A stretch of DNA of 64,000 nucleotides from Psychrobacter immobilis. Lineage in GTDB: Bacteria > Pseudomonadota > Gammaproteobacteria > Pseudomonadales > Moraxellaceae. The notes below the pieces were generated by a model. The model was not told the origin of the DNA and searched no databases. It was given only the letters and a program-made list of their open reading frames with translations. Positions 1-5,214 of the stretch are shown here, one piece after another; the first letter of the stretch is position 1; each line of letters opens with the position of its first letter. The stretch lies in assembly GCF_904846235.1 (NCBI RefSeq), contig NZ_CAJGZN010000013.1:1-64000 (forward strand). Direction: 5' to 3'. The position numbers and the translations under genes are program-made.

Positions 1-1
1 A

Positions 2-88
2 TTGCATAGCACGATTGGATATGTGTCACCCTTTGAGTTTGAAAAGCGGTATTATGATAATTTAACCCTGTCAGGCATCGCTGCCTGA
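2..88 (+). CDS. IS3-family transposase OrfB, C-terminal fragment (runs off the window)
   Basis: This open frame enters from the left edge and ends at a TGA at 86-88. Its product contains HSTIGYVSPFEFE followed by a short tail. This is the usual C-terminal end of the integrase (rve) domain of IS3-family OrfB transposases, just after the last helix of the catalytic domain. Only about 28 residues are visible, so the family is clear but the specific IS is not. The catalytic residues are outside the window. Confidence 0.75.
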   Translation: MHSTIGYVSPFEFEKRYYDNLTLSGIAA

Positions 89-98
89 CTCAAGTAAA

Positions 99-329
99 TC
101 ACTCTCCGATAAAGTCGGGGCGGTTCAATATCAAATGGGCTCGAATAGAAGAGGAGGCTTGACAGTCAAAATGATTGAGCTTTATATTACCTTTAAGTTT
201 TTTGACCACTTGTTCTGGTTCTAGAATGTCAGGCAGTGCTTCAATGAATGGATTCCCTTTATAAGAACCAAAGCTTTCTTTATAAACTGCATTAATCATT
301 ACTGTCTCCAACATTCTATAATCAGTCAT
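99..329 (-). pseudogene. tnsC: tnsC, 5' fragment disrupted by an IS
   Basis: TnsC is the AAA+ ATPase that links the TnsAB transposase to target selection in Tn7. Only the N-terminus survives: NPFIEALP and the later SSIRAHLI align with the start of Tn7 TnsC as I remember it. After about residue 68 the frame enters the terminal repeat of an IS3-family element and stops eight codons later. The Walker A and B motifs, which lie further on in the family, are absent, so the product should be inactive. The frame overlaps the end of tnsB by 8 bp. An internal ATG (MINAVYKE) aligns better with the Tn7 start than the first one does. Confidence 0.85.
101..127 (-). repeat. Terminal inverted repeat of the IS3-family element
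   Basis: This is the outer end of the insertion sequence, GC-rich at the tip (CGGGGCGGTTCA on the plus strand). It supplies the last eight codons and the stop of the truncated tnsC frame. The boundary at 127 rests on where TnsC similarity stops and on the typical IS3 tip; the partner repeat is outside the window. Confidence 0.7.
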
Positions 330-2427
330 CTTCAGATAAAATATTATGATAAATTGGGAACTTAAGCGCTAGCTCTTCATCATCAAATTCAGTTTGACTT
401 TTCGTGATTTTTTTGGTCGTAGACAGTTGAATTAACTCACCTTTTTTAAACTTATTTCTCTGCCTGTCCTGTCGCTCCTTATCTTTAGCTAACCTTTTGT
501 TATCATTAATATTAGCTAACTGAGCTGACTTACTTTTAAATGCTGTTCGTTTAGCCTTAATAGCTTCTTTTATGATTTTTTCATTTTCTCGTTCAAGGGT
601 TTCTAATGCGAAACTACTTTTAAGCTCCTGATTAGCAGCTGTTTTTTTCTGCTCTTCTTGTATTTGCCACACTTCCCAAAAACTACAGCCTTTAAACTCT
701 CTTGATCTATCGGATAAATGGGCTTTCCAGTAATTGAGGCTATCTTGTTCATAAAAGATAAAAATTGTATTCGCATCTAAAGGATCGTAAGCAACTTTAA
801 TCGACTTAGGTCTATTGATTGTGTTTTTCCGATGAAGCCAGCCTTTTTCTCTTATTTCAGCACAAATATAGTAATTACCAAAAAGCTTGACACCTAAATC
901 TGAAATGGTGGCTTTTTTTCGAGGTAATAGCGCTATGTATAAAGCATCCGCTGAGACAGCACGAAGCCTACCCGTTCGATGTTGTAATCCCCAATTCCAT
1001 AATTCAATAGGAACTAAAGGTAAGTCAGACGGCATATCACTATCTCTATCATAGTGACTTAATTGATGAGCATTGTTATGCATCAAAATTGAATTAATAA
1101 TAATTTTTTTGAAATCTGAAATTGTCAAAGCAGCATCTAGTCGATAGTCTTTGCCACCTTTTTTCTTCTCTTTAACCTCTGTGACTACTCCTGGCGCAAA
1201 TGGTTTGAACTTTGCCTGCATCGTTTTAAAGTAACGCTCCACAATAGGTTTTAAGTCGCCACGATAAGGAGGTGTATTCTCTACTCGAACTGAAAAGCTT
1301 TTTTCCAAGGTCTCAATTTGATGACCTAGTAACTCTCCTCGATCTGCGAGAATTGCATCTGGCAAGCCTATACATGGCCAATCATCAGCTGTGATATTAA
1401 GGCCATAATTTTTACAGTGACTTTGTTTATCCGCTACCGCCATCTCTAAGGCTTGAACACTCGTGACATAGGAAGGATTTTCAAATCCAATATAAAAACC
1501 TGCTACCATGCGGCTAAACACATCTGTAACGAAATAAATAACTGGACGACCTACAATACTTTGTCTATCTGAATCAGATACTAGATAAATATCTGCAATA
1601 GTAGCATCGATCTCATAGCGTGAGCCAGGTCCAAGAACTTGAGTATTAACAGTCGATCTTAACTGTCTCACATCTTTGTTATAACTAATTTTGTTATGTC
1701 TCGCTTTGAGTTTTTGAACAGAAGTAAAGTTCTTGTCATAAAAGTATTTAAACTGCCAGATACTAGGAAAGTCTTCTTCTTTAACATCTGGATTTAAAGA
1801 GCGATAGATTGTTTTAAACTTTCGGTAAGCATAGATGACTGTATGCTTGCTATCGTTTAATAAGTACTTATTTATAGTAATTGAGAAGAGCCTTTCTACA
1901 TCTTCGTTAATAACGGCAGCAACGCCTTCCTTATAAAGCCTAGGCCTACCTAGCTCTTTATCTTTAGCAATACGCTTTTTTCCTTTCGCTCCAGAATTCT
2001 TATAGTTCGGAAGTAGAGCATTAGGTACTTGGCCTTTTTGCCAATACCTACGAAGTAACCGATATAGCGTTTGTTTTGTACTTCTTTTAGAGTCAACAAT
2101 CTCATTAATGAACTTTGCACGTTCCTCTGGAAGGTAATATAAAGGGTGACTTACAATAGGCTTAATAAGCTCATAACTTTCATCTCGTTTTAACTGAGCT
2201 TTACTGCCATCTTTTGGAGTTTGTAACAGTAAACTCTGATGAGGGTCGTCAGTGATATAACACACATCCTCTTCAATCAGATTTACTAAATCCTTAATAA
2301 GTACAAGTTCAGGCAATGCGGATGTACGATCAATCTCAATCCAAACAACTTGCTCTGGTAAAAGGCTTAGTATTCTATACGTTGAACCTTGATTACTATA
2401 AACATCATTGATTCGCAACATATCCAA
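322..2427 (-). CDS. tnsB: Tn7-like transposase TnsB
   Basis: TnsB binds the transposon ends and performs the 3'-end cleavage and strand transfer of Tn7-type transposition. At 701 residues it is almost exactly the length of Tn7 TnsB. The DDE triad is readable: D274 in YEIDATIADI, D362 in ILADRGELLG and E397 in PIVERYFKTM, matching the spacing of the Tn7 triad. A DNA-binding N-terminal part with helix-turn-helix-like segments lies at about residues 100-250, and a basic, charged tail from about 620 on resembles the region that contacts TnsC in Tn7. It overlaps tnsA by 23 bp and tnsC by 8 bp, indicating translational coupling. The gene looks intact even though tnsC is broken. Confidence 0.93.
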   Translation of the reverse strand: MDMLRINDVYSNQGSTYRILSLLPEQVVWIEIDRTSALPELVLIKDLVNLIEEDVCYITDDPHQSLLLQTPKDGSKAQLKRDESYELIKPIVSHPLYYLPEERAKFINEIVDSKRSTKQTLYRLLRRYWQKGQVPNALLPNYKNSGAKGKKRIAKDKELGRPRLYKEGVAAVINEDVERLFSITINKYLLNDSKHTVIYAYRKFKTIYRSLNPDVKEEDFPSIWQFKYFYDKNFTSVQKLKARHNKISYNKDVRQLRSTVNTQVLGPGSRYEIDATIADIYLVSDSDRQSIVGRPVIYFVTDVFSRMVAGFYIGFENPSYVTSVQALEMAVADKQSHCKNYGLNITADDWPCIGLPDAILADRGELLGHQIETLEKSFSVRVENTPPYRGDLKPIVERYFKTMQAKFKPFAPGVVTEVKEKKKGGKDYRLDAALTISDFKKIIINSILMHNNAHQLSHYDRDSDMPSDLPLVPIELWNWGLQHRTGRLRAVSADALYIALLPRKKATISDLGVKLFGNYYICAEIREKGWLHRKNTINRPKSIKVAYDPLDANTIFIFYEQDSLNYWKAHLSDRSREFKGCSFWEVWQIQEEQKKTAANQELKSSFALETLERENEKIIKEAIKAKRTAFKSKSAQLANINDNKRLAKDKERQDRQRNKFKKGELIQLSTTKKITKSQTEFDDEELALKFPIYHNILSEDD

Positions 2428-3220
2428 GCTCCTCAGTCATCAAGTCCCAATAATGAGAGTTACTTATTTGAATGTCGCTACACTTTAGCTTTCTAAAGTC
2501 TATGCGAAGGTCGAATATGAAGAACCTTAGCCCTAATAATGTTCTCAACTCATTAAGCGAACTGCCTATCTCACTGAAATATGCAGTATCAATATCTTTG
2601 CACACAGCAATAATGCTTTTTTTAGGATATTTGGTAAATTCCTTAGCGTAAAAATTCAGACTGTCTTGAGTATCAATTGACCTATTTAGAGTAGTTTCTG
2701 GATATAGCCATTTAATGTTATTTTGAACGGCTATAGGTATGTCTTTTTCAGTGATTATCTGCCACGAAATACCTTTAGAGTGCCAGTATCGACGCTCTAT
2801 CTCTAGTTTCTCTATAGTTCTGGGCTTCATTAGGTCTTTTGAATATTTTGCCTGCAAAACAAATTGGCTAAGCTCTTTATCAGAGCTCACAACATAAAAG
2901 TCTGATGTCATAACATGAGTATTGCCTCTAATAGCAGGGTGCTTTACTTGCATATTCTCTGCAATCTGAAGAGTTTCATCAAATTTAAGAGGAAATTGCT
3001 CTCGAATATCTATGATTTCTTGACTCCATTCAAGAAATAGAAATGTTGCTAGCTCTAAATCAGACATTAAATGATGAGTACGTCTTGTTTTGTGACCGAA
3101 AACTCTATGGGAGCGACCTGACGACGATATATCAGATATTTTTATCCAAGGTTTATAATCGGCAAACTCCCCCTGACCTCTACCTTCTTTAAGCCACTTT
3201 TCTTGTTTTTTTGAAAGCAT
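2405..3220 (-). CDS. tnsA: Tn7-like endonuclease TnsA
   Basis: TnsA makes the 5'-strand cuts at Tn7 ends and works as a complex with TnsB, giving cut-and-paste movement. The 271-residue length matches Tn7 TnsA (273). The restriction-enzyme-like active site is present: E56 in SDLELATF, D107 in VMTSDFYV, and Q123/K125 in LQAKYS. Other family landmarks are GRGQG, SSGRSHRV and DIREQFPL. The C-terminal half is the winged-helix part that meets TnsC. The ATG follows directly on a run of six T residues and a strong hairpin; the only SD-like sequence, AAGGGG, lies in that hairpin. The gene is first in the tnsABC operon and is read in the same direction as glmS. Confidence 0.93.
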   Translation of the reverse strand: MLSKKQEKWLKEGRGQGEFADYKPWIKISDISSSGRSHRVFGHKTRRTHHLMSDLELATFLFLEWSQEIIDIREQFPLKFDETLQIAENMQVKHPAIRGNTHVMTSDFYVVSSDKELSQFVLQAKYSKDLMKPRTIEKLEIERRYWHSKGISWQIITEKDIPIAVQNNIKWLYPETTLNRSIDTQDSLNFYAKEFTKYPKKSIIAVCKDIDTAYFSEIGSSLNELRTLLGLRFFIFDLRIDFRKLKCSDIQISNSHYWDLMTEELGYVANQ

Positions 3221-3226
3221 AAAAAA

Positions 3227-3261
3227 CCCCTTGCTAAAGTTATATAAACTTTAGCAAGGGG
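3227..3261 (-). promoter_or_regulatory. Leader hairpin of tnsA, terminator-like, covering the SD
   Basis: Two perfect 15-base arms (CCCCTTGCTAAAGTT and its complement) flank a 5-base loop. On the minus strand the stem is followed by TTTTTT and then the tnsA ATG. It therefore has the form of an intrinsic terminator placed against a start codon, and the second arm ends in AAGGGG, the only plausible tnsA ribosome binding site. It could stop read-through from glmS, hide the SD in long transcripts, or both. The stem is seen directly; both roles are inferred. Confidence 0.75.
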
Positions 3262-3280
3262 TGATAGCGGAGTCAACAGT

Positions 3281-3344
3281 ATGACTCTTTATTACTCAGT
3301 ATGATTCTTTATTACTTAGTATGTCACTTTATTACTCACGTACA
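3281..3344 (-). repeat. Transposon right end with three 20-bp TnsB-type repeats
   Basis: Three tandem direct repeats with an exact 20-bp period (starting at 3281, 3301 and 3321) share the core CTTTATTACT. Read inward, the core is AGTAATAAAG, close to the AATAAAGT core of Tn7 TnsB-binding sites. The last copy runs to the tip, which ends in ACA at 3344 (5'-TGT inward). Tn7 right ends carry four overlapping 22-bp sites, so three 20-bp copies is a related but different layout. Confidence 0.85.
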
Positions 3345-3369
3345 AGGAGCTGTCGTAGAGTAATTCTTC
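3345..3369 (-). other. attTn7 spacer and insertion point downstream of glmS
   Basis: Exactly 25 bp separate the transposon tip from the glmS stop codon. In Tn7-type elements TnsD/TniQ binds the end of glmS and directs insertion about 25 bp beyond it. The first five bases (AGGAG, 3345-3349) would be one copy of the target duplication; the other copy is outside the window. Confidence 0.8.
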
Positions 3370-5214
3370 TTATTCTACCGTGACTGATTTTGCCAAATTG
3401 CGTGGCTGGTCGACGTCTGTGCCACGCATCACTGCTACATGGTATGACAACAGCTGCACAGGCACGCTGTAGACGATAGGGGCAAGCGTCTCGCAAACAT
3501 CGGGTACATATACTAAGTGTAGTCTATCTTCCGCGACCATTTGACTGGCTTCGCTAGCGAATACAAATAGCTCGCCATGACGCGCATGCACTTCTTGCAT
3601 GTTGGCTTTTAATTTATCAAACATACTGTCTTTGGGCGCTAGTACGACGATGGGCATGTCTTTATCGACCAATGCCAATGGACCGTGTTTAAGCTCGCCT
3701 GCCGCATAACCTTCTGCATGAATGTAAGAGATTTCTTTTAGCTTTAGCGCGCCTTCTAGCGCAATCGGGAACTGTAGCCCGCGACCTAAGAATAGACAGC
3801 TTTTCTTATCTTCAAAGCTTTCACTCATGGTTTTGATAGGAGCATCAAGGTTTAAGCTGGCGTAGAGTTGTCCTGGTAATTGATGTAACTCACTTAATAA
3901 CGTATTTAACTGCTCGTCAGTCATGCGTTTCTGCGTGACACCAATTTTTAATATCAACAATATCAAGGCCACAAGCTGCGTGGTAAATGCTTTGGTAGAG
4001 GCGACGCCAATCTCAGGCCCTGCCAACGTCGGTAAGAAAATATCTGTTTCACGTACCAGCGATGACGTCGGTACATTACATAATGCCAAGCTGACTAAGC
4101 CTGCTGGTGTTTGCTTCTGGATATCACGTAATGCTGATAAGGTGTCAGCCGTTTCACCAGATTGAGAAATACAGATGACCAAAGTATTATCGACGACGAC
4201 AGGATTGCGATAGCGGAATTCGCTGGCAACCTCGACGGAACAAGGTATACGGATAAGGTTCTCAAACCAGTATTTTGCGACCATACCGGCATGATAACTG
4301 GTACCACAAGCAATCACTTGTACATGACGAATACCTGACAACAGTGTCTCATGACGCTGTAAAAAATCGTCGCGTAGTTTAGTCGTTTCACCATTGTCCA
4401 AAGCCATCTCGATCGTACGAGCGACGGCATCTGGCTGCTCGTAAATTTCTTTGAGCATATAATGCTTGAACTCGCCTTTATCTGCATTATGCTGGGTTGC
4501 ATCAATCTCATGTATCTGACGTTGGATTTCAACACCATCTGCATAAACTTGAATGCTATTGCGAGTTAATTTGGCGATATCGCCTTCTTCTAGATACATA
4601 AAGCGGTTAGTCACTGGCAGCAAAGCCAACTGATCTGATGCGATAAAATTCTCACCGATACCAACACCAATCACTAAAGGTGAGCCTAGACGTACAGTAA
4701 TGAGCTCATCAGGGCAATCTACGTGTACGATACCCAATGCAAAAGCACCGTGCAGTAACGGGATAATGGTGCGTACTGCTTCTAACAAGTCAGGTGTCTT
4801 TTTGTAGATATCATGGATTAGATGCGCCACAACTTCAGTATCTGTCTGTGAAGTAAACACGTAGCCTTTGGCTATTAGCTCTTCTTTTAGTTCAGCGTAG
4901 TTTTCGACGATACCGTTATGAACGACCGCAATTTTGCCTGACACGTGTGGATGCGCATTACGTTGTGCTGGCTCGCCATGGGTTGCCCAGCGCGTATGAG
5001 CAATACCGATATGACCATCAAAAAACTCTGGATTGATAGCGACGGCATTAACTAGTGCCTGTACTTTACCCACTTGGCGCTCACGGTGTAGTTCACCATC
5101 ACGAATAACGGTCAGACCAGCCGAATCGTAGCCCCGATATTCTAAACGCTTTAGGCCTTCAAGCAAGATATTCGCAATATTGCGTTCAGCAACGGCGCCT
5201 ACAATTCCACACAT
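3370..5214 (-). CDS. glmS: Glutamine--fructose-6-phosphate aminotransferase (isomerizing)
   Basis: GlmS makes glucosamine 6-phosphate from fructose 6-phosphate and glutamine, the first committed step to UDP-GlcNAc for peptidoglycan and LPS. The N-terminal class II glutaminase starts MCGIVGAV with Cys2 as nucleophile, and HTRWATHG follows near residue 75. Two SIS sugar-isomerase domains cover about 290-600, with CGTSYHAG and SQSGETADT. The C-terminus AKSVTVE is standard. Length (614) is normal. It is followed by attTn7 with an inserted Tn7-like element, so its native terminator is displaced. No glmS ribozyme is seen upstream, as expected outside Gram-positives. Confidence 0.97.
   Translation of the reverse strand: MCGIVGAVAERNIANILLEGLKRLEYRGYDSAGLTVIRDGELHRERQVGKVQALVNAVAINPEFFDGHIGIAHTRWATHGEPAQRNAHPHVSGKIAVVHNGIVENYAELKEELIAKGYVFTSQTDTEVVAHLIHDIYKKTPDLLEAVRTIIPLLHGAFALGIVHVDCPDELITVRLGSPLVIGVGIGENFIASDQLALLPVTNRFMYLEEGDIAKLTRNSIQVYADGVEIQRQIHEIDATQHNADKGEFKHYMLKEIYEQPDAVARTIEMALDNGETTKLRDDFLQRHETLLSGIRHVQVIACGTSYHAGMVAKYWFENLIRIPCSVEVASEFRYRNPVVVDNTLVICISQSGETADTLSALRDIQKQTPAGLVSLALCNVPTSSLVRETDIFLPTLAGPEIGVASTKAFTTQLVALILLILKIGVTQKRMTDEQLNTLLSELHQLPGQLYASLNLDAPIKTMSESFEDKKSCLFLGRGLQFPIALEGALKLKEISYIHAEGYAAGELKHGPLALVDKDMPIVVLAPKDSMFDKLKANMQEVHARHGELFVFASEASQMVAEDRLHLVYVPDVCETLAPIVYSVPVQLLSYHVAVMRGTDVDQPRNLAKSVTVE

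Follow-up and report, generated by a model that had tools for sequence, protein, structure and literature searches.

Tn7 inserts at high frequency beside an essential gene. In Tn10/IS10, the transposase gene is reportedly protected from external promoters, as Davis, Simons and Kleckner are said to have described in 1985: read-through RNA folds and thereby buries the transposase Shine-Dalgarno (SD) sequence, and the RNA made from the element's own promoter reportedly lacks the 5' arm of this fold and is translated. IS200 has one stem-loop for the termination of impinging transcripts and a second that occludes the ribosome binding site (PMC3196728). On Tn7 itself, the title of Gay 1986 (cited in PMC2918618) announces the insertion of Tn7 into the transcriptional terminator of Escherichia coli glmS, and glmS ends inside Tn7 may already have been mapped in that work. 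In the portion of the VchCAST report considered here, the orientation of integration is influenced by the sequence of one arm of a palindrome located 97-107 bp from the right end, and this palindrome is suspected of promoting tnsABC transcription (PMC10201428). Among openly licensed papers, we found nothing on Tn7 in relation to impinging transcription or external promoters, and no description of how Tn7 avoids glmS-driven activation, of what ends glmS RNA once its terminator has been split, of a combined promoter-terminator-SD-lock device, or of the reuse of such a device by the host.

Here, we describe a hairpin in front of tnsA in the window, i.e., the whole 64,000-nucleotide stretch of Psychrobacter immobilis DNA that was analyzed, and we consider it likely, from its sequence and that of its relatives, to act as a compact guard against read-through, centered on the tnsA promoter. 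The features of the locus are the following.

3370-5214, minus strand: glmS, the source of read-through, aligned to the GlmS C-termini of 104 relatives.
3345-3349, minus strand: target duplication CTCCT, closing the 25-nt gap from the glmS stop to the element; the left flank is CTCCG (4/5).
3278-3344, minus strand: right end of the element, with terminal TGTACGTG (3344-3337) and three TnsB-type repeats at 20-bp spacing with a GTAATAAAGNNTCATACT core.
3248-3276, minus strand: predicted sigma-70 promoter, TTGACT (3276-3271), a 17-bp spacer, and TG-extended TAAAGT (3253-3248), with the best score in the 130 nt before tnsA.
3262-3226, minus strand: hairpin with a perfect 16-bp stem and a 5-nt loop (5' arm, 3262-3247; loop, 3246-3242; 3' arm, 3241-3226).
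3240-3243, minus strand: predicted tnsA transcription start at the border of loop and 3' arm, placed from the promoter position ~7 nt past the -10 box.
3227-3232, minus strand: SD-like AAGGGG inside the 3' arm of the hairpin.
3221-3226, minus strand: T tract TTTTTT between the stem and the tnsA ATG, its first T being paired in the stem.
2405-3220, minus strand: tnsA (Pfam PF08722, 2.5e-21; PF08721, 4.8e-11).
322-2427, minus strand: tnsB, a Mu-type transposase (Pfam PF09299), with a TTG start as listed.

The element shows the hallmarks of the Tn7-like group: tnsA and tnsB follow in order at the right end, which faces glmS; the insertion lies ~25 bp past the glmS stop and is flanked by a 5-bp duplication with one mismatch; and TnsB-type sites occur at both ends, more densely at the right (three sites 20 bp apart) than at the left (three spaced sites). 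The earlier note had stated that transcription from glmS runs toward tnsA and that the insertion displaced the native glmS terminator, and both statements were borne out. The glmS gene lies on the minus strand, and 25 nt separate its end from the right end of the element. The left end was located on contig C34 of the same genome (L270:640-740); beyond it come CTCCG and then ATCCCTGCTATTGTAAACTCAGTAGCAGGGGTTTTTTATAATTTT, which is the terminator found directly after glmS in close relatives. The left end is, thus, joined to the old glmS 3' flank and terminator, and the displacement is real. This displaced terminator resembles a decayed tnsA hairpin and itself appears to be an older Tn7-like relic, a status based for the ATCCCTGCTATTGTAAACTCAGTAGCAGGGGTTTTTTATAATTTT group on arm similarity and decayed downstream sequence, with no surviving TnsB sites. 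Near codon 49, tnsC is divided between contig C13 (window positions 1-321) and contig C29 (L263/L261), and an apparent insertion sequence (IS) end lies at the break. By eye, the first 100 bases of the window resemble the end of an IS3-type transposase gene, so the element is probably IS-interrupted.

On the minus strand, the hairpin (3262-3226) reads ACCCCTTGCTAAAGTT TATAT AACTTTAGCAAGGGGT. The perfect stem abutting the tnsA start codon, first claimed to have 15 pairs, is real and has 16 pairs when the outer A-T pair is counted. The tnsA ATG (3220-3218) directly follows TTTTT, and no second in-frame start was found nearby. AAGGGG (3232-3227), placed in the stem by the same note, does lie within the 3' arm, and the best anti-SD duplex for tnsA (-7.1 kcal/mol) falls entirely in this arm. 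A stable stem with a T tract immediately 3' corresponds to an intrinsic terminator, and in a terminator scan of a 5-kb stretch the tnsA hairpin was the strongest of 9 terminator-like sites (3.3 expected in shuffles). The fold of positions 3160-3300, computed on the plus strand and applicable to the hairpin because its stem is palindromic, gave a z score of -5.0, with none of 200 shuffles equally stable; on the coding strand, the 160 nt upstream of tnsA fold with -26.3 kcal/mol, a stability reached by none of 100 shuffles.

The promoter predicted within the hairpin, a feature that the earlier note had missed, would explain how tnsA is ever expressed. According to promoter scores computed with approximate E. 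coli weights, its -10 box sits in the 5' arm and the predicted start falls at the loop, so the tnsA mRNA made from this promoter, with a predicted 5' untranslated region of ~21 nt lacking the 5' arm, cannot form the hairpin, whereas glmS read-through RNA can. The predicted energy needed to open the region from -16 to +3 is 25.5 kcal/mol in read-through RNA versus 4.7 kcal/mol in the own RNA, i.e., the tnsA SD is predicted to be buried in read-through RNA, as in IS10-type control.

We propose the following model. Read-through RNA from glmS, which has both arms, would fold and be released at the T tract, and glmS would thus gain a new terminator. In any read-through RNA that escapes, the tnsA SD would be buried in the stem, blocking translation. 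The own promoter of tnsA, with its -10 box in the 5' arm, would start RNA at the loop; without the 5' arm, this RNA would not fold and hence would not be terminated, and its SD would be exposed. Once the element decays, the host would retain the hairpin to end its glmS RNA.

This layout recurs widely. Searches by protein and by family, covering Psychrobacter, Moraxellaceae, Pseudomonadales, Gammaproteobacteria, plasmids, and E. coli genomes, yielded tnsA loci that fell into 58 distinct upstream clusters; these clusters, like the relics described below, are related, such that counts are not independent and p-values overstate independence. A hairpin beyond what shuffles produce, at or just before the start codon, was found in 41/58 distinct tnsA upstreams, classic Tn7 included, and an abutting hairpin in 0/44 other open reading frames of the window, a control covering one genome only. 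In 34 of the 41 hairpin elements, the predicted start of the top promoter in the 130 nt falls in the loop ±3 nt (binomial p of about 1e-21, for an assumed chance rate of 0.15 and with relatedness ignored), and the best SD lies within the 3' arm in 40 of them. The predicted opening of the start region costs a median of 19.4 kcal/mol in read-through RNA versus 5.2 kcal/mol in the own RNA, the latter being lower in 41/41. Hairpin sequences vary widely among clades and the layout is constant. Classic Tn7 (plasmid R721, E. coli attTn7) carries TTGTAA-17-TATGCT and the arms AGTCCAGTTATGCT / AGCATACTGGACT before tnsA, and the hairpin is at the same place in the Tn7 loci L027, L075, and L125. The glmS gene lies directly upstream in 33/41 elements with the hairpin versus 2/17 without it (p = 1.5e-6, confounded by relatedness).

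The two presumed functions of the hairpin are not equally widespread. In 17/41 hairpin elements, the T run has fewer than four residues, and in a few (L099, L101, and L102) it is essentially absent, so termination would not be universal, although the SD lock would be nearly so; 16/41 hairpin elements have an SD of weak complementarity (above -4 kcal/mol). In the Pseudomonadales elements L101 and L102, a full AGGAGG lies inside a strong stem and the T tract is absent, indicating that SD burial is more general than termination. In these two elements, judged by their sequences, the translation lock occurs naturally without the terminator. The T tract was also considered as a mark of glmS-adjacent elements and dropped, as no association was seen (18/33 versus 6/8, p = 0.43).

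The stem is conserved with changed bases in relatives, as expected if pairing matters. A set of 12 Psychrobacter-type stems, live or almost intact, shows pairing in 95% of cells and changes on both sides in 4 pairs, including C-G/U-A and A-U/U-A exchanges. None of 500 shuffles was as good on cells paired, two-sided cells, or covariation score, and slid registers also fell short. Among 27 distinct relic stems of one family, without intact tnsA, 96% of cells pair and 4 pairs are compensated (e.g., U-A, C-G, and G-C at one position); part of this relic covariation may predate decay. L149, L153, and L201 match the family-B pattern and were omitted from the covariation set as host-type terminators. 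The suggestion of the earlier note that the hairpin could both replace the glmS terminator and lock transposase expression is, thus, supported by a stem that covaries and a layout that recurs in Tn7 and in gammaproteobacterial Tn7-like elements.

The glmS 3' flanks of 104 Psychrobacter genomes were surveyed for the fate of the hairpin. A live tnsA follows glmS in 15/104, and 76 of the remaining flanks carry one or more marks left by a former Tn7-like right end. In 39 flanks, a matching hairpin arm is accompanied by a second mark independent of it, which is a TnsB-type site at the offset expected for one or else a broken tnsA start; L156, L197, L201, L220, and L230 are counted as relics by weak marks only and are absent from the site-defined subset. 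Relics selected solely by their TnsB-type sites have kept a terminator hairpin in 27/33 cases. In the 29 site-defined relics with any detected terminator, the median promoter score is 4.6 versus 11.9 in live elements (p = 8e-7), and hairpin energy in the same set shows no change relative to live elements (p = 0.41). At the sequence level, relics retain the pairing and the T tract and lose the promoter to decay. Most Psychrobacter glmS genes that lack an intact tnsA seem to end at decayed tnsA hairpins. From this retention, we infer that the host keeps the hairpin as its glmS terminator after decay of the element, under selection for glmS termination, a reuse that the earlier note had missed. 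The same relic pattern occurs in 3/30 Acinetobacter genomes (L252, L256, and L260); in most others, the native terminator is of a different type. In the Psychrobacter glmS flanks L154, L175, L215, L218, and L228, a TnsB-type site is present at +33 to +35, and the terminator hairpin downstream of it is unrecognizable or weak.

Ends of this type were also found outside Psychrobacter. The right end of the element (about 65 nt, 84 to 88% identity) recurs on two plasmids (L123:3001-3065 and L126:2501-2568): on a small one from Aeromonas, it sits immediately before qnrS2, and on one from Vibrio, it has an integron integrase and qnrVC7 nearby. In all, 133 plasmid records match this right end and may represent non-autonomous Tn7-like cassettes. 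The Moraxella osloensis plasmid pMOXF1 (L122:2980-3300) carries the right end, the hairpin, and an unannotated tnsA start, its TnsA being 82% identical over the matched part. A Psychrobacter-type element end with tnsA (78% identity) is also present on a Vibrio hibernica contig (L010), which points to transfer between families.

The hairpin could be solely a replacement glmS terminator, the buried SD and the promoter overlap being by-products of a short intergenic space. The strong stem with its T tract fits such a role, as does the survival in relics of precisely the terminator part after tnsA loss. We nevertheless regard this reading as unlikely, since strong stems with a buried SD and no T tract exist in L101 and L102 (AGGAGG) and also in L091 and L092, and since the promoter falls in the same loop register too regularly for this (34/41). 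The direction of capture could also be the reverse, with transposons having acquired host glmS terminators; live and relic hairpins are indeed alike, and some relics match in their arms only. Many relics, however, carry TnsB-type sites at +33 to +35 and broken tnsA starts past the hairpin, classic Tn7 on plasmid R721 has the hairpin away from glmS, and the native terminators of Acinetobacter are of another type, all of which makes a host origin highly improbable.

The palindrome may instead work as DNA, as an operator for TnsB or another repressor or as a part of the transpososome, rather than as an RNA structure. It adjoins TnsB sites, and a right-end palindrome is reported in the portion of the VchCAST paper considered (PMC10201428). 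Such a role appears very unlikely given that arm sequences differ among relatives with pairing kept, that the T tract, where present, is on the tnsA side, and that the hairpin survives in relics without tnsA and promoter. We give equally little credit to a regulated attenuator, in which the true tnsA start would precede the 5' arm, and transposition would be switched on when a protein or small RNA opens the hairpin. A strong terminator combined with SD burial would suit a switch of this kind, and the tnsA start in the loop is a predicted one; yet the best promoter is predicted to start in the loop in those same 34 of 41 elements, and no family reached the cut-off in the Rfam scan, which returned sub-threshold, chance-like matches only.

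Altogether, we favor a guard against read-through that is centered on the tnsA promoter. It is also reasonably probable, in our judgment, that across the glmS-targeting Tn7 lineage one hairpin acts as promoter, terminator, and translation lock, adapted to a site after an expressed essential gene, that serial insertion and decay have repeatedly replaced host glmS terminators, and that transposons now supply the terminator for a large proportion of the glmS genes of Psychrobacter. Two questions on Tn7, its escape from glmS-driven activation and the ending of glmS RNA after the terminator is split, would then be answered by one small hairpin. The device is testable in E. coli with Tn7 and bears on the design of mini-Tn7 and CAST vectors with regard to right-end sequence and read-through. 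The relics would clearly illustrate, for bacteria, how a host can retain the regulatory RNA of a transposon as its own terminator.

Set beside the known systems, the tnsA hairpin resembles VchCAST/Tn6677, by description only, in having a palindrome upstream of tnsA; in the portion of that report considered, the palindrome is described as an orientation determinant, with no terminator or SD lock proposed (PMC10201428). It shares with IS200 the termination of impinging transcripts and the occlusion of the ribosome binding site, but IS200 uses two separate stem-loops, whereas the single tnsA hairpin would do both and also holds the promoter. The predicted logic is the same as in Tn10/IS10, with the SD buried in read-through RNA and an own RNA without the 5' arm. 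Two features differ from Tn10/IS10, an unrelated element family: the tnsA stem is followed by a T tract, as in intrinsic terminators, and its 5' arm contains the -10 box itself. With Tn7 at attTn7, the element of this study shares the family, the site, and a hairpin at the same position.
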